A DNA stretch of 40,737 nucleotides from a virus. The notes under the pieces were generated by a model that worked only from the letters and a program-made list of their open reading frames with translations, did not search any database and was not told the DNA's origin. Within the stretch, counting starts at the first letter, position 1, and each line of letters starts with the position of its first letter. This document shows, in pieces, positions 222-40,737 of this stretch. The DNA lies in IMG/VR virus record IMGVR_UViG_3300035670_000519, positions 1-40,737 of that record. One strand, 5' to 3'. Made by a program: the position numbers and the translations under genes.

Positions 222-467
222 ATGGCTAATCCTTTCAAAACAGTAAGGTTATGGGATGAAGATATATGGTTAGAAATGTGGGATTTTAGAACAGAACATG
301 GCTATACAAGTATAGAACAAGTAATATATGTAGCCTGGGAAGCTTTCAAACAGCAATATAAAGAAGAAATTATCAGGGAAGAAATAGCAAAGATAATTAA
401 AGATGAAAATGATGCTGAAATATTAAGACAAAAAATAAGACAAAAATTATTAAAAGGCTTTTTATAA
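222..467 (+). CDS. Ribbon-helix-helix-like small DNA-binding regulator
   Basis: An 81-residue protein. I place the start at ATG 222, seven bases after the ribosome binding site AAGGTGGTGA. An in-frame GTG lies upstream at 210 but sits inside that site. The N-terminus has the ribbon-helix-helix layout: a short strand (KTVRL), an acidic-aromatic helix (residues about 12-27), a GYTS turn and a second helix (SIEQVIYVAWEAFKQQY), followed by a charged helical tail. RHH proteins bind DNA as dimers through the strand, usually at repeated operators. Repeated GATCTGT sites upstream fit autoregulation. The stop codon lies within the gene's own terminator hairpin. A second copy of its start appears at 40649. 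The family assignment is by pattern only. Confidence 0.6.
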   Translation: MANPFKTVRLWDEDIWLEMWDFRTEHGYTSIEQVIYVAWEAFKQQYKEEIIREEIAKIIKDENDAEILRQKIRQKLLKGFL

Positions 468-476
468 GCCTTTTTT
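452..476 (+). terminator. Terminator overlapping the RHH gene stop
   Basis: The stem AAAAGGCTT/AAGCCTTTT with loop TTTAT is followed by a T-tract. The stop codon TAA lies at the end of the loop and the start of the 3' arm. The stem is the same as in the terminators at 19-43 and 40414-40438, with a third loop sequence. Confidence 0.8.
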
Positions 477-481
477 AATTT

Positions 482-690
482 ATTAGTAAACTTATTTTAG
501 TAAACCCTTACTAAAGTAAGAAATTTATGTTCATGTCTTATATATTAATATAGGACATGAAAAAAAACATATACATTAGTAAACTTATTTTAGTAAACCC
601 TTACTAAAGTAAGAAATTTATGTTCATGTCTTATATATTAATATAGGACATGAAAAAAAACATATACATTAGTAAACTTATTTTAGTAAA
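482..690 (+). repeat. 93-bp tandem repeat, 2.25 copies, with hairpin
   Basis: Two identical 93-bp units (482-574 and 575-667) are followed by a 23-bp partial third (668-690). Each unit has TTAGTAAAC and TTTTAGTAAAC, a near-palindrome CTTACTAAAGTAAG, and an AT-rich hairpin with arms TTCATGTC and GACATGAA followed by eight A's. The array has no coding capacity and lies directly upstream of the MerR-like/PrimPol operon. A diverged copy with a 94-bp period lies at 26340-26472. It could be a regulatory array or a replication origin; the sequence does not decide which. Confidence 0.9.
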
Positions 691-698: not shown

Positions 699-764
699 AA
701 AAAGTTAATTTAGATCTATATATCTTATATAATAATAAAAAATAAATAAAAGGTGATGATTTTA

Positions 765-932
765 ATGTTAGTTAAAAGTATTAAAGAAGTAGCAAAAGAA
801 GTAGGATTTAGCGTTCAATCTATACGATATTGGATTCTAAAAGGAATCGTAAAACCACAAAAAATAGGATCAACATTCATATTTACAGAAGAAGATATTG
901 TTGAAATTAAAAACCACATAAATAGGGGGTAA
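765..932 (+). CDS. MerR-like helix-turn-helix mini-regulator
   Basis: A 55-residue protein (starts MLVKSIKEVAKEVGFS) with ATG at 765 after the strong site AAAGGTGATGAT. Residues 4-28 form a helix-turn-helix (IKEVAKEVGFSVQSIRYW), followed by a winged segment (GIVKPQKIGSTFIFTEEDI) as in the DNA-binding half of MerR/excisionase proteins. There is no effector domain. Its last codons, AGG GGG TAA, double as the ribosome binding site for the PrimPol-helicase starting at 941, so the two are translationally linked. It could control the operon through the repeats just upstream, or act as a replication initiator. It is too short to assign further. Confidence 0.75.
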   Translation: MLVKSIKEVAKEVGFSVQSIRYWILKGIVKPQKIGSTFIFTEEDIVEIKNHINRG

Positions 933-940
933 AATACGGA

Positions 941-3661
941 ATGGCTAAAACCTTTAAATGCAATATAATTCATCCAGGATTTAAAAATAAAAAACAAATT
1001 AAAACGGGATCAGTAGTAAATGCTTTATGGAAACCAGATGCACGAAACTTGGAAATAACACCAGAAGATTTTTGTGATTCAATATTAAATGGTGATGTAT
1101 TTATTCCATCAGTATGCAACACGCCTATTAAAACTGAAGATGGTAATAATTTAATTCTAACACCCCAAAATATCCCAATTTACAATCCATTATTTGAAAT
1201 ACACACTAAATGGGATGAAAAATTAAAAAAATCGATATTAAATGATGACTATTCCACATTTAATGAATTTTATAAGATAATATATCGTAAACAAGAAAAA
1301 TGTTGGACTGAACAATGGTTATTAGGATTAGATTTTGATTCACAAGAAGAAAAAATAGTGAATAATAAAATATATCCTGAAATAATAATTAATTTTAATA
1401 AAGTAGATAAAATTCTAAAAGATAATAATCTAACACCATTCTTTATTTATGAAACCATGGGCCACACGGTAGAATTGCCAAAAAGAAGATATGTATTTAA
1501 ATTAGAAAAACCTATTACAAGTTATCAAGAAGCTAAATGGTATCAATACCAATTGATGAATTTATTTCCTAAAGATACGGACATAGGATGTGATAAAAGC
1601 TGTAGTGATTTATGTAGGGTATTCTTTGGAACTAATAATCCTAATAAATTAGTATTCTTTGATGCCGATATTTATCAGGATTTATCCACTTTTGGCAAAC
1701 CACCAGCTTTCCAACATACAGATTTTCAAGTATTATATAATTCATATTATCATTTAATAACACCAATTAGAACAACACCAAGTAATTATTCCAACACTTA
1801 CAATGGTAAATGCCCTTTATTAGATAAATGGAATAATCAAGACTATTCTTTAGGCTTCTCAGATATGCAGATGTTAATGACCATTTATACTAACGTTGAA
1901 AACGGTAGAATAGAATGGGAAAAATTATTATATTTAAACCAAAAAGTTAATGGAACACAGGCTTATGACCCGGATATATGGTTAAATAATTTTGATACAA
2001 TGAAAAGCAAAGAATATAAATGTATTTCATGTAAAAAATGTAATCATTGTATTCGAAATAACAGAACACCTTTAGATTTCTTTCAAAAAAAACCTGTAAT
2101 CAATATAAAATATTTAGGTGAAAAAATATACAATGAAACTATTGATGATGCGAGCAAAGAACTAAATGATTTTATTATGAATAATTATCAAAATATGAAC
2201 TTTAAATATGCTATAAACGCACCAACGGGGGTAGGTAAGACAGAAATAATGATAAAAATAGCCAAACCAAATGATATATTATGCGCACCAACCCATGCTT
2301 TAATTGAAGAAATAGCCCAAAGATTTTTAAAAAATGGCAATAATAATTATATTATTTCTTTAAAAATTCCGCCGCTATTATCACAATCTGATGAAGATGA
2401 ATATATTTCTTTAGTAAATAAAGGAATGGTATGGGAAGCCAGTAATTTTTGGAAAAATATAGTTAATAAATATCCTAAACCTAATATTCATCAAGATTAT
2501 TTAAATAATCAAGAAATTATTAAAAAATGTAATGATAAAATAATCTTATGCACACATGCAAAATTAAACCATTTAATTAGAACCAGAAAAATAAATAATA
2601 TGGATATAGGGGTTATTTATATTGATGAAGATCCAACCGAAAATATATTTATTAAAGAAGAAACTATTTATTTAAGTGATTTAGAAAAATTAATAAATTT
2701 AATTATTCCAGGTGGATTTTATATCAAAGAACTGACTGATAAAATACAAAAAATTTATGAATTCATTTTAAGTGGTAAAAAAACTATTAATTGGATGGAA
2801 TATATTTCAGATTTTAATTTTAAAGAAATTAAAGAACTTAAAAATATATTCAGTAATTATTTCTATAAACAATATCCGGATATTCAATATCCTGTTCATC
2901 ATATATTCAGTGATAAAATATATGATGAAAAACCTAAAATAGAATTAGTAATTAACAAATTTAGGATGGAAGTAGATAAAAATAAAGCCGATGTAATAAG
3001 GATAATAAAGAAAAATATAATTGATCATAATCGTATATTTTTATTTTCAGCAACCATTAATAGCAAAATGGCTAAACACCTCGGATTTGATTTTAAAAAC
3101 ATTGACTATAATTACAGAAATGAAAATTTAATACAATATCCTTTATTGAATTTAAACAAAAGTGATTTAACATTAAAAAATAAAGATAATAGTGAATGTA
3201 TTAAAAAAGCCAAAAAAATTAATGATATTCTATTAAATGAAGATGTGATAATATTAACACATATGGGATTGGATAAAGGTAAAAATATATTTCAATATAT
3301 AAATAAACCAATACATCCACAAATTCATTTTTGGAATAGTGAAGGCTATGATATATTAAAAGGTAAAGATATAGCAATAATAGGAACACCCAGAAAACAC
3401 GATAACGCTATTTTTACTATAGCCGCAGGATTAGATATTCCAATTACAAATATTAAAAAAAATAAAATAAAACAAAAATTAAATGATTTTGATTTTATTT
3501 ATTATACTTTTTCAGACCCTAAATTAGCGGAAATAGAAACTTACCTAATAGATAAAGAACTAACACAACTTATAGGAAGATCCAGAACAACCAGAACTGA
3601 CGCCAAAGTATTTATTTTTAGTAATTATCCAACTAAAGGTATAAATTTAAAAGGGGAATAA
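941..3661 (+). CDS. PrimPol-like primase fused to SF2 helicase
   Basis: A 906-residue protein that is probably the central replication enzyme. The N-terminal half looks like an archaeo-eukaryotic primase: GLDFD with D131 and D133, then a strand ending in GH (H175) with the downstream KRRYVFKL stretch, then the D218/D223/R226 segment before VFFGTNN. A four-cysteine knuckle follows (C361, C364, C367, C370). The C-terminal half is a superfamily 2 helicase: Walker A APTGVGKT at 427-434, an Ia-like CAPTHALIEE, motif II DEDP at 562-565, motif III SAT at 703-705, and motif VI QLIGRSR at 876-882. With no DNA polymerase gene visible, this protein presumably primes, and perhaps extends, DNA at the fork. 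The helicase motifs are clear. The primase assignment rests on motif spacing. Confidence 0.75.
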   Translation: MAKTFKCNIIHPGFKNKKQIKTGSVVNALWKPDARNLEITPEDFCDSILNGDVFIPSVCNTPIKTEDGNNLILTPQNIPIYNPLFEIHTKWDEKLKKSILNDDYSTFNEFYKIIYRKQEKCWTEQWLLGLDFDSQEEKIVNNKIYPEIIINFNKVDKILKDNNLTPFFIYETMGHTVELPKRRYVFKLEKPITSYQEAKWYQYQLMNLFPKDTDIGCDKSCSDLCRVFFGTNNPNKLVFFDADIYQDLSTFGKPPAFQHTDFQVLYNSYYHLITPIRTTPSNYSNTYNGKCPLLDKWNNQDYSLGFSDMQMLMTIYTNVENGRIEWEKLLYLNQKVNGTQAYDPDIWLNNFDTMKSKEYKCISCKKCNHCIRNNRTPLDFFQKKPVINIKYLGEKIYNETIDDASKELNDFIMNNYQNMNFKYAINAPTGVGKTEIMIKIAKPNDILCAPTHALIEEIAQRFLKNGNNNYIISLKIPPLLSQSDEDEYISLVNKGMVWEASNFWKNIVNKYPKPNIHQDYLNNQEIIKKCNDKIILCTHAKLNHLIRTRKINNMDIGVIYIDEDPTENIFIKEETIYLSDLEKLINLIIPGGFYIKELTDKIQKIYEFILSGKKTINWMEYISDFNFKEIKELKNIFSNYFYKQYPDIQYPVHHIFSDKIYDEKPKIELVINKFRMEVDKNKADVIRIIKKNIIDHNRIFLFSATINSKMAKHLGFDFKNIDYNYRNENLIQYPLLNLNKSDLTLKNKDNSECIKKAKKINDILLNEDVIILTHMGLDKGKNIFQYINKPIHPQIHFWNSEGYDILKGKDIAIIGTPRKHDNAIFTIAAGLDIPITNIKKNKIKQKLNDFDFIYYTFSDPKLAEIETYLIDKELTQLIGRSRTTRTDAKVFIFSNYPTKGINLKGE

Positions 3662-13212: not shown

Positions 13213-13234
13213 AATTACACCCCTTATTACTTTA

Positions 13235-13249
13235 TATATAATATTACTA
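13235..13249 (-). promoter_or_regulatory. Late promoter-like element
   Basis: Read leftward TAGTAATATTATATA, 22 bases before the holin-like start codon. It is one of nine such elements in the late block. Confidence 0.6.
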
Positions 13250-13253
13250 TATT

Positions 13254-18387: not shown

Positions 18388-18400
18388 TTATCCACCACCT

Positions 18401-18414
18401 TATATAATATTACT
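18401..18414 (-). promoter_or_regulatory. Late promoter-like element
   Basis: Read leftward AGTAATATTATATA. It touches the ribosome binding site AAGGTGGTGG, so a transcript starting from it would have an extremely short leader. Confidence 0.55.
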
Positions 18415-18417
18415 TAA

Positions 18418-22933: not shown

Positions 22934-23682
22934 ATCTGAATCTTGTATAGTAATTAAATTATCACCTATTTTATTTTTAATACCATCTAATATTCTTATT
23001 AATTTTTCTTCATTAGCAATATCACTTTCTTCTTCTACGGAATCAAGTACAGAAGGTTTATTCATTATTTTGTTGATATCAGGAAGTTTCTTTCCACCTT
23101 CCCATATGCTAATAGAACAAAAGTTTGCAATTTGCCATGCTAGTAAGGTATTTTGTTTTAATTCCATTTCACCTTTTCTTATTTTAGCACGTCTTAATTG
23201 TTCTAGTTCATTTCTGGTATATTTTAAAGTTTGTTCTGGTAATAGATTAAAATTACAATAGGCCCATTCTATAAGTTTATTATAGTCTAGCCCTTCTTCA
23301 GGGCTACTTAGTTTGGGTCTTCGTTATTTACTTCTGTTTCATTACTATTTAATTCATCTAAAGTTTTACCTGTTAATTCTGGCATTGCATTTGCTGCTAA
23401 TTGTAAAACCATTGTAAAAGCTTCCATTTTATTTGAATATTCTTTAATTAAGTCACCAACTTTAATTGGTGTCAATGATTTATCTTCATCAACCATACAT
23501 GCCCATAAAATAACACATATTTTATAGAATGGTATTGATAAATCTGCCATAGTTTGTTTAACACCGATTAGTAAATTACTTAATATAATCCCTTTTTCTT
23601 CAATTAAAAATTCAGCTTCAGTACTTAATTTTGCTTTTCTTTCTTTATCCAATTTGTAAGTAATAAATGGTGTATTCTTCAT
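22916..23682 (-). CDS. Tail assembly chaperone fusion GT, -1 frameshift product
   Basis: The product of the upstream frame (23682-23311, 124 residues) joined by a -1 frameshift to the downstream frame (23311-22919, 131 residues), giving about 255 residues. The slippery heptamer C CCA AAC lies at 23317-23311, right before the stop of the short protein, and a perfect 7-bp hairpin follows four bases later (23306-23288). The downstream frame is open from the slip site through MELKQNTLLAWQIANF to the stop and has no good start of its own. This is the standard G/GT arrangement between the tail tube and tape measure genes. The fusion recruits tape measure protein during tail assembly. Confidence 0.85.
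23288..23317 (-). promoter_or_regulatory. Programmed -1 frameshift signal (CCCAAAC + hairpin)
   Basis: Read leftward: slippery CCCAAAC (23317-23311), spacer TAAG, then TAGCCCT-GAAGA-AGGGCTA (23306-23288). Slipping from CCA-AAC to CCC-AAA puts the ribosome into the frame that stays open to 22916. The stop of the unshifted frame, TAA, follows the slippery site immediately. Confidence 0.88.
23308..23682 (-). CDS. Tail assembly chaperone G (unshifted product)
   Basis: A 124-residue protein encoded directly after the tail tube gene. ATG 23682 follows AGGGGGAAGAATTAAA. It begins MKNTPFITYKLDKERKAKLS and ends in an acidic Asn/Glu-rich tail (LDELNSNETEVNNEDPN) that spans the frameshift site. It binds unfolded tape measure protein together with the GT fusion. 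Family recognised by gene order and frameshift architecture rather than sequence. Confidence 0.8.
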   Translation of the reverse strand: MKNTPFITYKLDKERKAKLSTEAEFLIEEKGIILSNLLIGVKQTMADLSIPFYKICVILWACMVDEDKSLTPIKVGDLIKEYSNKMEAFTMVLQLAANAMPELTGKTLDELNSNETEVNNEDPN

Positions 23683-25141: not shown

Positions 25142-25178
25142 GTTATCACCCCTAATAATTAACCACCACGATAATTAT

Positions 25179-25193
25179 TATATAATATTACTA
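25179..25193 (-). promoter_or_regulatory. Late promoter-like element
   Basis: Read leftward TAGTAATATTATATA, about 37 bases before the start of the gp10-like gene. Confidence 0.6.
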
Positions 25194-25198
25194 AATAA

Positions 25199-25505: not shown

Positions 25506-26291
25506 TTAAGCTTCACTATTTAAAGAAGTTAATAAATAAGTCCTTAAAATTCTTTGTGCTTCAACTGAATATAATTTGTATTCTGAACCAGGAAAATATA
25601 TTTCCCTATTTTTATTTATTTCAATTTCTTTTAATCCATAATGTTTTAAATCACTTCTTATTTTAGCATCACCATTCAATATGGCAATAGCTTCATGAAC
25701 ACAAGCTAATTTAACTAAATCAGTATCAGAAGTATTTATGTTATAATCCCATTCTGAAATTGGAAGGTATCTAGGGAATTGTAATTTTTGTGTTAATACC
25801 ATTTTATATCCTTGCCACATTTCACTATCAATATGTATAGTAGCTTGAATTAAAGAACGTATTCTATCATCAGTTGATGCCTGGTACCACGATTCAGCAT
25901 TCATTATTTGGGCTGCTAAAATATTAGCATCATCTATTTCTATGTATGTATTAACATCCTGTGTATGTTCTGGCATTAATCCAACATTAGTATTATCAAA
26001 ACTAAAAACAGTTTCTAAAGTTTCACGTCTTAAATCTGGATCACCGTTATTTATTGCTGATATTTCTAAATAAATATAAGGTGTTTTATTAGGTACAGTA
26101 TACCAAAATATATAAGTTCCAACATCAGTTCTATATCCAGATAAATCTAAATCTGTTCCTATTTGTACCATTTTATAATCATAAACCCTAAATACCGGAT
26201 TAGTTACATCTATAGGTGTTATGCCATCTGTTTTTGAAACAAAAGTATAAATTTTTTCTATAGATTGTCCTATCAAAGCTTTTTCAACCAT
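25506..26291 (-). CDS. Head-tail adaptor with extra N-terminal beta domain
   Basis: A 261-residue protein. The C-terminal part (about 115-261) matches phage head-tail adaptors: NAESWYQASTDDRIRSLIQATIHIDSEMWQGYK, ...LQFPR, then the KLACVHEAIAIL helix. The first ~110 residues form a beta domain (FVSKTDGITPIDVTNPVFRVYDY), not present in the minimal adaptor. They may decorate the neck. It is the first gene downstream of the 94-bp repeat element and of the promoter-like element at 26312. Confidence 0.75.
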   Translation of the reverse strand: MVEKALIGQSIEKIYTFVSKTDGITPIDVTNPVFRVYDYKMVQIGTDLDLSGYRTDVGTYIFWYTVPNKTPYIYLEISAINNGDPDLRRETLETVFSFDNTNVGLMPEHTQDVNTYIEIDDANILAAQIMNAESWYQASTDDRIRSLIQATIHIDSEMWQGYKMVLTQKLQFPRYLPISEWDYNINTSDTDLVKLACVHEAIAILNGDAKIRSDLKHYGLKEIEINKNREIYFPGSEYKLYSVEAQRILRTYLLTSLNSEA

Positions 26292-26311
26292 TTTATCACC
26301 ATCCTTTTTAT

Positions 26312-26326
26312 TATATAATATTACTA
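26312..26326 (-). promoter_or_regulatory. Late promoter-like element
   Basis: Read leftward TAGTAATATTATATA. It lies just after the 94-bp repeat element in the direction of transcription and about 20 bases before the adaptor start. Confidence 0.62.
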
Positions 26327-26339
26327 ATTTTTCTAGCTA

Positions 26340-26472
26340 TTTAGTAAAGGTTTATTAGAATAAGTTTAATCAGGTAAGGCTTTTTTTTCATGTTCTATTA
26401 TATATATATAGAACATGAAATCAAATTTCTTACCTTAGTAAGGGTTTATTAGAATAAGTTTTACTAATAAAT
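26340..26472 (-). repeat. Diverged copy of the early 93-bp element
   Basis: Read leftward this carries TTAGTAAAACTTATTCTAAT, then AAACCCTTACTAAGGTAAG, then an AT-rich hairpin with arms TTCATGTTC and GAACATGAA followed by A's. A second GATTAAACTTATTCTAATAA copy lies 94 bp further on. The early array at 482-690 has the same order, orientation relative to downstream genes, and a 93-bp period. The hairpin arms differ (GTTC/GAAC here, GTC/GAC there) yet remain complementary. Confidence 0.85.
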
Positions 26473-26475
26473 TAA

Positions 26476-26498
26476 AAAAGGGATATATATCCCCTTTA
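26476..26498 (-). terminator. Terminator after the 1492-residue virion gene
   Basis: Read leftward AAAGGGGATATATATCCC followed by TTTTTTAATT. It overlaps the stop codon. It resembles the hairpin at 20276-20293. Confidence 0.75.
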
Positions 26499-29400
26499 AT
26501 AATTTGTTCTACTATCATTATCTTTTCTATTAGTTCTTGAATTAATATCTGATTTTTCTGTTCTACTTTCAGGTCCTTTACTTTTTATTCTAGACATTAT
26601 TTCATTTCTAATTCTTCCTGACTTATTAATTAATCTAGCGATATAATTATTAAATATTTTAAATCTACTTATAATATTCTTTGAAATCAAAACACTTTTT
26701 TGATTAAAAACACTTAAATTATTTACAATTAATTTCCTAAATATATTAGTATAATTCAACAAATTATTAATATTTAAATTGTTGTTAATAAATTTATTCA
26801 TGTAAATAGTTTTTATTTTAATTAATTTAATATTATTAAATATTATTTTATCTATGTAAATAGTTTTTATTTTAATTAATTTAATATTTGTATTTACATA
26901 TTTGAATAAATTAATAGTTTTAGAATTACTTAAACTTAAATTATTAGTTAAATTTTTAATCCTGTTAATAAATTTAAATAATACATAACTTAAATTAATA
27001 TTATTTTGAATTTTTTTAAATATTTCTGAAGTTTTAAAATGTGCAAAATTTAAATTTATAATTGTGTTTTTGTAAATATTTTTAATATAATTATTTAATA
27101 CTTTAATATCTAAATTAATAGTTTTACCAGTTATTTTTTGAATAAAGTTATCTTGTTTTAAATAAAGTACAAATAATTTATGTAAAGTTTTTAATGCTTG
27201 TAATTCATTATGTATTTGTAAATCTGTACTAATATTTTTCAATATATTAACGATTTTAAAACCTTCTAAATTAATTGTATTAATAATACTTTTGTTTATA
27301 CTTTTAATCAAATTATTTGAATTGATTATCTGAATATTCAGGTATTTATTTGTAGCTTTAGTTAAGTTATTAAATAATTTTAAATTAACATTTATAGTTT
27401 TAATTAAGTTAATAGTTTTTAAATTTAATAATTTAATATTATCTGTAATTTTTTTATCTACTAATCTTAAAATATTTGAAGATAAATTTAATGAATTTGA
27501 TATTAATTTAGTAAAAACATTAAAGAAGCTTATATTATTTAGTAATTTTATATTTGTAAGTATATTTTTAGTCAAGTTAATAGTTTTTAAATTTAATATT
27601 TTAATATTATTTGAAATAAATTTATTTAAATTCTTTGTATAAGTTGAATAATTATTCAATTTTATGTCATTTATCAAAGTCTTTAAAATATTCATACTAA
27701 AACTAAATAAATTAAATATTTTAAAATTACTAATTATTTTTTTAGATATATTGACTATTTTAATATTATTTAGATTCACTAAATTATTAACTTTTTTATT
27801 AATACTATTTATTTTACTATTTGTGATTTTAATAGTATTTGTAATTAATTTACTAAGTATTTTAGTATAATTCACTAAATTATTTATACTAAACATTTTA
27901 CTAATAAATTTACTAGTATTTTTTATTAAATTAATAGATTTAGCAGTGTTCACTATTTTAGAATAAGTAGTAGTATCATTAACTTCATAACTAATATAAT
28001 AATCTGGATTTAATTCAACTGAATTATTTATTGTCACTGTATTTATTTCTTCAAATAAATTTCTATTAGATTGTATAGAATTATTATTATTTAAAATACA
28101 TTCTTTAATCTTTTTATCTTCATAAGTACTATAAATTAATCTTAGATTATTAGAATCAATTTTATTTAAAGAAGTATACCATTTATTAACTGAAGTAGAA
28201 TCGACAGTTGTTGTTGATGTTACTGATAAAGTTCCACTATTATTATTAACTAATATAGTTTTTAAATTATAAGTTCCACTTTGATTATAACAAACTATTG
28301 CATTATTAGTAGTAGTATCTATTGAAGATATACCTGTTAAAGATACACCATCTATAGTAATTGATTTTACATTTTCAGCTGATAATTCTTGTCTATTAGT
28401 TATATTTAAAGTGTTTCCATCAATAGTCAATATTCTTCCGTATAATTTACCAAAAGGACAAATCACTAAATATTTATCAGTATCTAATTTAGTTAAACTA
28501 ACAACAGAAGAATCTAAACCAGTAGTATTAGTAGTTTTTGTTATAGTAGTTCCACTTACATCACAAAGGAATATTTGTGGTTGATAATAATCATCTACTA
28601 CTAAAAATCTGGAATCAGAAATTCTAATTTGTTCTGATATTCCATAAGAAGAACCAGTTTTAAAAGTTTGTGATCCACCCCAACTTATAATATCATTACT
28701 AATAGTTAATATTCTAGCACTTGAAACAGCTTGATAATTATAACCTATAACTACTTTATTATCAGATAATTTAGTTAGGTTTAATCTATTTAAATTTGAA
28801 ATATTATTAGTACTGAATAAAGTTTGTTCATTACCCCAAGTTATATCATTACCATTATAAGTTCCTATTTTACCATATAAAACCCTAGTATAAGTTGGTG
28901 AACCACTATAACCTTTATCATATACTTCTAATATTTTATTATTGGCAAAAACTACAGTTGCCCTATAATCTTCATCAGTTGTATTTATAGTAGAACTTAA
29001 TTTTTTATATCCAGGTGTAAAATTTAATGAAGTTGTAAGTGTTTTAATTATAGTGCCACCAGATATTTTTGTTATTAAATCGCTAATACTTAAATTATTT
29101 ACTAAATTTTTAAATCTTCCAATATTTTTATTAGCACTTAATTTTAAATTAGCAGTTAAATTTTTAAAATATTCTTGGAAACTAACAGTTTGTCCCCATT
29201 TAGTTCCATCACCCCATTTAAGTCCAGTTCCCCATTTTACGGCAACTTTACCTTTAATAGCTTGTCCTAATGTTTTAAAACTGTTTACTATATTTTTAGA
29301 ATATGCAGTTCTAATACCAAAATTCCAAGTAGTTTTATCTGAAATACCAGGAAAGTTTATAAAAGCTGTAGCATCAATTTTTATATAATAATCATTACCC

Positions 29401-32720: not shown

Positions 32721-32739
32721 TTTATCACCCCTTTTAATA

Positions 32740-32754
32740 TATATAATATTACTA
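32740..32754 (-). promoter_or_regulatory. Late promoter-like element
   Basis: Read leftward TAGTAATATTATATA, about 20 bases before the YadA-like fibre gene. It follows the terminator of the capsid operon, so it likely restarts transcription. Confidence 0.62.
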
Positions 32755-32770
32755 ATTTTTAAGCAATAAA

Positions 32771-35102: not shown

Positions 35103-35139
35103 CCCGGAAAACCCCCTATTTTTAGACATCACGTCTTTT

Positions 35140-35154
35140 TATATAATATTACCA
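35140..35154 (-). promoter_or_regulatory. Late promoter-like element
   Basis: Read leftward TGGTAATATTATATA, upstream of the scaffold gene. The fifth base position is G rather than the A of most copies, shared with the 36484 copy. Confidence 0.6.
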
Positions 35155-35159
35155 AAAAA

Positions 35160-38422: not shown

Positions 38423-38451
38423 TATTTACCACCACCTGAATTAATTAACGT

Positions 38452-38466
38452 TATATAATAATACTA
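38452..38466 (-). promoter_or_regulatory. Late promoter-like element upstream of terS
   Basis: Read leftward TAGTATTATTATATA, 30 bases before the terS start. It is nearly identical to the element upstream of the RHH regulator at 194-206. It probably starts the main late transcript. Confidence 0.62.
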
Positions 38467-38530
38467 AATAATAAAGAATAATACTAAAATGAAATACTGA
38501 AGGTCCAGAAACTGTGAAATTTTGGATTTT

Positions 38531-38561
38531 TGGATTTTTGGTGAAATTTTGGGGAAAGAAA
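38531..38561. repeat. 31-bp direct repeat, copy 1
   Basis: Begins TGGATTTTTGGTGAAATTTT and ends GGGGAAAGAAA. Identical to 38601-38631. Confidence 0.92.
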
Positions 38562-38600: not shown

Positions 38601-38631
38601 TGGATTTTTGGTGAAATTTTGGGGAAAGAAA
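38601..38631. repeat. 31-bp direct repeat, copy 2
   Basis: Identical to 38531-38561, exactly 70 bp away. A candidate terminase-binding or other protein-binding site. Confidence 0.92.
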
Positions 38632-40395: not shown

Positions 40396-40518
40396 ATAAA
40401 ATAGATTAGATGGAAAAAGGCTTGTAATAAGCCTTTTTCTAATTTATATTTTATTTAAAAAGTAAATAGTATTTCATTTAAAAACCCCACAATCATTTGA
40501 TAGAAACATTCGATCTGT
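40396..40518. repeat. Right copy of terminal duplicated block A
   Basis: Identical to 1-123 apart from the terminator loop (40424-40428 GTAAT versus ATTAC). The upstream sequence (after the gene at 40352) is unique to this copy. Confidence 0.9.
40414..40438 (+). terminator. Rho-independent terminator, loop GTAAT
   Basis: The same 10-bp stem as at 19-43, with the loop in inverted orientation. It terminates the small operon 39522-40352. Confidence 0.85.
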
Positions 40519-40604
40519 TATATTTATATGTATTTTTAAAACGGATCTGTGAACTAGTAGCTTCTGGCTATTAAAACAGATCACATTTTTAGTAATACTA
40601 TATA
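40512..40604 (+). promoter_or_regulatory. Operator/promoter region of the RHH regulator, allele 2
   Basis: Three GATCTGT half-sites (40512-40518, 40544-40550 and, inverted, 40576-40582) are spaced exactly 32 bp apart, about three helical turns. They are followed by TAGTAATACTATATA (40590-40604), the promoter-like element. It differs from the left copy in sequence and number of sites. An extra ~30 bp separates the promoter element from the ribosome binding site. Confidence 0.55.
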
Positions 40605-40632
40605 ACGTTCGTAATAACATTTGTATTAATTA

Positions 40633-40737
40633 AAAGGTGGTGATATTTATGGCTAATCCTTTCAAAACAGTAAGGTTATGGGATGAAGATATATGGTTAG
40701 AAATGTGGGATTTTAGAACAGAACATGGCTATACAAG
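40633..40737. repeat. Right copy of terminal duplicated block C
   Basis: These 105 bp are identical to 206-310 and run off the window end. They include the ribosome binding site and first 29 codons of the RHH regulator. Confidence 0.92.
40649..40737 (+). CDS. RHH-like regulator, second copy, truncated by window end
   Basis: Starts at ATG 40649 with the same AAAGGTGGTGATATTT leader as the gene at 222. The visible 29 codons are identical to it. The remainder lies beyond the window. Either this is the same gene seen again across a circular junction, or a true second copy. Confidence 0.7.
   Translation, partial: MANPFKTVRLWDEDIWLEMWDFRTEHGYT

Follow-up and report, generated by a model that had tools for sequence, protein, structure and literature searches.

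A hairpin element present in diverged early and late copies in a metagenomic phage, a candidate paired replication origin

Known origins of comparable design

Tailed phages with two replication origins are, to our knowledge, known in detail mainly from one model, SPP1, and as far as we know the role of its late origin in the switch from theta to sigma replication is still a proposal. In this Bacillus subtilis phage oriL and oriR are similarly organised, with direct repeats and an AT-rich region, and are separated by ~13 kb of the circular genome. The late genes are interrupted by oriR, which sits between transcription signals; according to a proposal, forks stall at initiator bound to oriR and concatemer synthesis begins (PMC6316719, PMC3485210). 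Plasmid pRN1 has a stem-loop origin beside its primase-helicase gene, in which pairing is conserved rather than sequence (PMC4234260, PMC3869888), and a pRN1-like stem-loop origin has been proposed for Bordetella phage BIP-1 (PMC4234260). The cch2/CCPol-MP system of SCCmec has one origin, downstream of the operon, whose AAGTG iterons are bound by Cch2 (PMC7581432).

The phage considered here exists as metagenome DNA only. The window, by which we mean the whole stretch analysed, is an IMG/VR virus record (IMGVR_UViG_3300035670_000519) of 40,737 nucleotides with 26% GC. Early genes are on the plus strand, running from 39.5 kb across the joined ends to 11.2 kb; the virion genes are on the minus strand. 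Because its ends overlap, we treat the window as a circle of ~40.4 kb, an unproven assumption; the overlap is imperfect, with 1-310 resembling 40396-40737 and nearly identical in the flanking parts. The two ends differ over ~100 bp before the gene at 222, reflecting either two population alleles at the closing point of the circle or a real duplication. A perfect 31-bp direct repeat (38531-38561 and 38601-38631) upstream of the small terminase gene is a candidate packaging site.

The early and late elements

A 93-bp tandem unit upstream of the replication operon had been described from the sequence alone, and Tandem Repeats Finder bears this out, with period 93, 2.2 copies and a 100% match at 482-690. 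The early region contains the following features.

222..467, plus strand: gene preceding the early element; its 81-aa product looks ribbon-helix-helix-like by eye, with a low-confidence single-sequence model
452..474, plus strand: intrinsic terminator directly before the early element
482..574, plus strand: early element, copy 1, 93 bp (tandem repeat search and self-comparison)
492..519, plus strand: two iteron-like dyads, TTATTTTAGTAA and TTACTAAAGTAA, centres 16 bp apart (sequence); both recur at 585-612 and the first again at 678-689
530..561, plus strand: AT-rich hairpin, TTCATGTC...GACATGAA followed by A8, with a second copy at 623-654 (folding)
575..667, plus strand: early element, copy 2, identical to copy 1 (tandem repeat search)
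668..690, plus strand: partial third copy, 23 bp, the dyad part only (tandem repeat search)
753..932, plus strand: gene for a 59-aa MerR/excisionase-like HTH protein, immediately after the early element; an ATG start is possible at 765
941..3661, plus strand: gene for a 906-aa replication protein, an SF2 (DEAD/ResIII) helicase whose N-terminal part has a set of primase-polymerase-like motifs

Each unit consists of two TTAYTnnARTAA dyads with centres 16 bp apart, followed by an AT-rich hairpin and a run of eight A. The early dyads are predicted to be able to pair with each other in a 13-bp stem. The array lies between the 81-aa gene with its terminator and the operon of the 59-aa HTH and 906-aa proteins; genes for an Enc34-type SSB and a RuvC-like resolvase lie further down.

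The second version was found where the sequence-only reading had placed it, in the late block, diverged and with a 94-bp period (26340-26468, 80-82% identity). Its surroundings are as follows.

25506..26291, minus strand: head-tail adaptor gene, the next gene after the late element
26309..26328, minus strand: late promoter-like motif ATTAGTAATATTATATAATA between the late element and the gene at 25506-26291
26341..26367, minus strand: late element, partial second copy (ACTTATTCTAATAAACC) at a 94-bp offset (self-comparison)
26375..26468, minus strand: late element, full copy, 94 bp (self-comparison)
26387..26419, minus strand: late hairpin, TTCATGTTC...GAACATGAA followed by A8, with one compensatory pair relative to the early hairpin (folding)
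26476..26497, minus strand: intrinsic terminator directly before the late element
26711..27000, minus strand: most AT-rich stretch of the window (7-11% GC per 120 bp), inside a 1492-aa ORF
13232-13251, 18398-18417, 25176-25195, 32737-32756, 35137-35156 and 38449-38468, minus strand: other sites of the late promoter-like motif
40588-40607, plus strand: further site of this motif

Self-comparison aligned the late version (26340-26505, minus strand) to the early element at 82% identity over 167 bp (E 1.4e-38) and to the second early copy at 80% over 135 bp (E 4.3e-26); within the late version 26435-26461 matches 26341-26367 at 96%. The CCTTACTAARGTAAGAAATTT core occurs exactly three times, where none would be expected by chance. 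In pairwise alignment the similarity begins at the terminator T-tract (CCTTTTTTAATTTATTAGT) and runs past the hairpin towards the next gene. Both terminators are followed by TTTTTTAATTTATTAGTAAA, and the spacing from terminator to TTAGTAAA is equal in the early and late copies. The homology covers nearly the whole intergenic region, terminator tail included. The copies are mutually inverted and both point at the next gene, so that the orientation relative to downstream genes is the same, as had been claimed. TTAGTAAAC-type repeats had been ascribed to both versions; this is clear for the early array, with six occurrences of TTAGTAAA, and weaker for the late copy, with one in repeat orientation.

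The late copy lies inside the late block, 14.6 kb from the early copy on the presumed circle. The 1492-aa ORF and its terminator precede it, and the head-tail adaptor gene follows. The AT-rich stretch at 26711-27000 is 250-550 bp away. The C-terminal part of the 1492-aa ORF (26500-28500) is encoded by DNA of ~15% GC with many internal repeats and is rich in Asn, Ile and Lys. In GC content the elements rank only moderately low within this genome, at the 13th and 24th percentile. Of 97 comparison loci of at least 20 kb each, most of them partial genomes, that were run through the same pipeline, two had a comparable dispersed noncoding pair (E 1e-10 or better). The element is real, well above chance, and probably functional as DNA.

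A 20-mer around TTAGTAATATTATATAA occurs upstream of late genes, with eight sites above 15 bits against 0.28 expected, a count that is partly circular as the matrix was built from sites spotted by eye. All eight sites are intergenic and in gene direction, and the exact 13-mer TAATATTATATAA has four occurrences, all of them on the minus strand. No -35 box is evident at these sites. The motif is possibly a phage-specific late promoter. It precedes other late genes that have no element, so the element would be unnecessary for promoter function; and since it lies downstream of the element, the late hairpin would be absent from a transcript that starts there. TTAGTAAA resembles part of the motif and was considered as such, but at 8 bits the early copies do not rise above background.

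Hairpin pairing and counterparts in other genomes

The hairpin arms read CATGTC/GACATG in the early and CATGTTC/GAACATG in the late element. Three substitutions fall in 24 arm positions and all 12 pairs stay canonical (simulated p 0.013); the changes comprise one compensatory pair (C-G to T-A) and one wobble-to-Watson-Crick change (T.G to C-G). The preserved pairing is modest evidence, as it comes from one pair of paralogues in which a single compensatory pair would on its own be weak. Folding energy is far below that of shuffled sequences in both copies (z -7.1 and -4.4), and DNA folding is comparably strong on both strands. The first stem, 13 bp in the early element, has two mismatches in the late one, for which a 5-bp stem is predicted. 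Since this stem is broken, the dyads look more like protein-binding sites than like a conserved stem. Selection on structure, argued earlier from arms that differ and remain complementary, is modestly supported for the hairpin, whereas the extended 13-bp first stem is lost in the late copy.

The element core has no exact match in IMG/VR in element context, only chance matches in unrelated contexts; the hairpin has no exact match in IMG/VR, and blastn of the element DNA against phage and plasmid records returned none. A covariance model of the three copies, run over 68 loci, found nothing outside the window. Its best other match (L276, E 0.2) was judged on folding to be due to chance; a different hairpin-plus-iteron array lies near that match. 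Terminase, adaptor and replication-protein peptides have no close relatives in IMG/VR. Major capsid protein (MCP) and TerL profiles reached distant phages only; in the 22 genomes or records searched next, the replication protein was found in G020 only.

G020 (IMGVR_UViG_3300005831_000025; 31,880 bases), reached via the major-capsid profile, is probably complete because it carries a 120-base end repeat. Its MCP is 48% identical to that of the window, and its 951-aa replication-protein homologue about 28%. Upstream of the replication gene are two 67-nt hairpins. Their gapless alignment shows 14 differences, and in three pairs both bases have been exchanged to give a different Watson-Crick pair (simulated p 0.005). 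A separate family, a ~115-bp stem-loop element with 73-75% identity between copies, occurs in three places, directly 3' of the replication gene and twice in the late block. Also in the late block, a noncoding stretch at 22954-23347 (L272 6954-7347) holds seventeen CTAAGTGA repeats.

G321, a Bacillota contig, encodes a related 990-aa ORF, and upstream of this ORF lies a 64-nt inverted repeat that is nearly perfect. All five TGTATACA iterons in its 20 kb lie within 174 bp, where 0.33 would be expected per 20 kb. This repeat and iteron region (L288 2926-3194, contig 50), ~310 bp before the ORF, is a candidate origin in its own right. The hairpins of G020 and G321 differ from those of the window and are located just upstream of the related primase-like/helicase gene. 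The prophage G329, which has a replication-protein homologue, shows no clear hairpin pair at that gene; a dispersed repeat in it (47.5 versus 30.0 kb) was set aside as it may be a host repeat. Layout, not sequence, thus recurs at three of the four loci whose flanks were read, the window included. On conservation in relatives, whose absence the sequence-only reading had named as counting against it, the searches give a partial answer: the element was present at no other locus searched, but analogous hairpins with compensatory changes occur in the one distant phage relative at the same gene position.

The N-terminal half of the 906-aa protein has a motif order that we take to resemble that of archaeo-eukaryotic primases (AEP). 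This order, GLDFD...YET...R...D..R.FFG, is conserved in its relatives. The domain has no Pfam or PDB match, and a fold search was ambiguous, placing the S-2L PrimPol AEP domain at Z 4.6 among unrelated entries; that other such domains were missing there was not taken as evidence against the assignment. As these searches gave no confirmation, we call the protein only primase-like. In a G296 protein (L275) the same primase-like N-terminal motifs are joined to a CHC2-type zinc finger, not an SF2 helicase.

A candidate paired origin and its rivals

Like SPP1, the window has two distant elements of shared organisation, one with the replication genes (482-690) and one interrupting the late block between transcription signals (26340-26468). 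Dyads and AT-rich DNA are present, but as the GC content of the elements is only moderately low, an unwinding region like that of SPP1 is no more than putative. The spacing is similar, ~13 kb in SPP1 and ~14.6 kb here if the circle is assumed, and both phages encode an SSB and a Holliday-junction resolvase. The replication proteins differ: SPP1 uses gp38, gp39 and gp40 (a DnaB-type helicase) with host primase, whereas the window encodes the primase-like/SF2-helicase protein. In addition, oriL lies inside gene 38, whereas the early candidate is intergenic and has conserved hairpins.

The likeness to pRN1 lies in a helicase protein that contains a primase domain (putative in the window), in the adjacent gene for a small DNA-binding protein, and in stem-loop pairing kept despite sequence change, as seen in the window and in G020. 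The G020 stem-loop directly 3' of the gene is also placed as in pRN1. However, pRN1 combines a confirmed primase-polymerase domain with an SF3 helicase, and the window helicase matches DEAD/ResIII (SF2) models, with no SF3 helicase; pRN1 also has one large stem-loop and no iterons, whereas the window hairpin is shorter, is accompanied by dyads and has a second distant copy. By analogy, then, the window combines features of SPP1 and pRN1; membership of the pRN1 type is not claimed, because the helicase is not SF3 and the AEP domain is unconfirmed. SCCmec shares short direct and inverted repeats adjoining a primase-polymerase/helicase operon, and differs in its single origin, downstream of the operon, with AAGTG iterons. 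The idea itself has precedents in the two related origins of SPP1 (PMC6316719) and the stem-loop origin of pRN1-type replicons (PMC4234260).

We propose, as a reading that we place just on the probable side, that the element is a replication-origin module in two diverged copies, similar to oriL/oriR of SPP1 and resembling the stem-loop origin of pRN1. This is favoured by (i) dyads and a hairpin directly before the HTH/helicase operon; (ii) the diverged copy in the late block; (iii) similar layouts at related genes. Origin activity, initiator binding and an early/late division of labour are what we infer from this arrangement. A phage initiator would recognise the TTAYTnnARTAA dyads, load the helicase at the AT-rich hairpin and prime synthesis; the candidates are the 59-aa HTH protein, the primase-like/helicase protein or both. 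Since none of the genes scanned was recognised as encoding a DNA polymerase, extension would fall to that of the host. The early copy, with two units and a partial one, would be the main origin. The single late copy follows a terminator among the virion genes and would act as a weaker, secondary origin or as a barrier to forks; its role would parallel that proposed for oriR, a switch to concatemer (sigma) replication. No DnaA-box cluster was found in the window, consistent with a phage-encoded initiator. GC skew over the window shows no sign change tied to 26.4 kb; its extremes coincide with changes of gene direction, and since the skew follows gene direction it cannot decide on an origin.

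Three roles had been suggested for the element, a paired origin, a regulatory switch shared by early and late transcription, and a small RNA; the first fits best. The second survives as a serious though rather unlikely rival, an operator array in which the 81-aa (222-467) or the HTH (753-932) protein binds the dyads and couples transcription of the replication and tail operons, the hairpin and A-tract shaping the complex. Operators are expected at operon junctions, and both copies do lie between a terminator and a co-directional gene; the 16-bp dyad spacing, the two candidate DNA-binding proteins that flank the early copy and the promoter-like motif directly after the late copy would all suit such an array. 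However, other late-block terminators (e.g. at 33.5, 32.8, 22.9 and 20.3 kb) precede genes without the element, the promoter-like motif occurs elsewhere without it, and an operator would leave unexplained both the kept hairpin pairing and the hairpins at the G020 and G321 replication genes.

Copied or mobile noncoding sequence, or a site for site-specific recombination or partition, with no role in origin firing and the late copy a mere duplicate, is an improbable explanation. Inverted copies with near-complete intergenic homology down to the terminator tail are what a segmental duplication would leave, but divergence with hairpin pairing and spacing kept suggests constraint, no transposase or recombinase was recognised among the annotated genes, and recombination between inverted copies would flip 26 kb of mixed early and late genes. 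Slightly less probable still is a function at the RNA level, with a structured leader or a small RNA in the 5' regions of the two operons. The low folding energy of both copies would fit it, as would the one-sided T.G to C-G change, of a kind that RNA tolerates. Against this, mismatches disrupt the extended first stem in the late copy, a transcript from the late promoter-like motif would start beyond the hairpin and lack it, there is no Rfam match at gathering score, and the DNA folds comparably on both strands. The position of the promoter and the broken stem rule out an RNA leader as the main reading.

Returning to the paired origin, a broader and doubtful extension would cover a whole lineage of phages with the primase-like/SF2-helicase protein. 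These phages would maintain hairpin origins of conserved structure both early and late; the late one would be programmed as a second origin, or as a fork barrier, to turn theta into concatemer replication, and sequences would change so fast that relatives share only layout and pairing. If true, an independent lineage with a different replication protein would let the switch model be tested by comparison, and the idea put forward from plasmid pRN1, that phages have hairpin origins conserved in structure, would be supported. With an element whose function is putative, the window offers a second system in which the question of early and late origins may be addressed.
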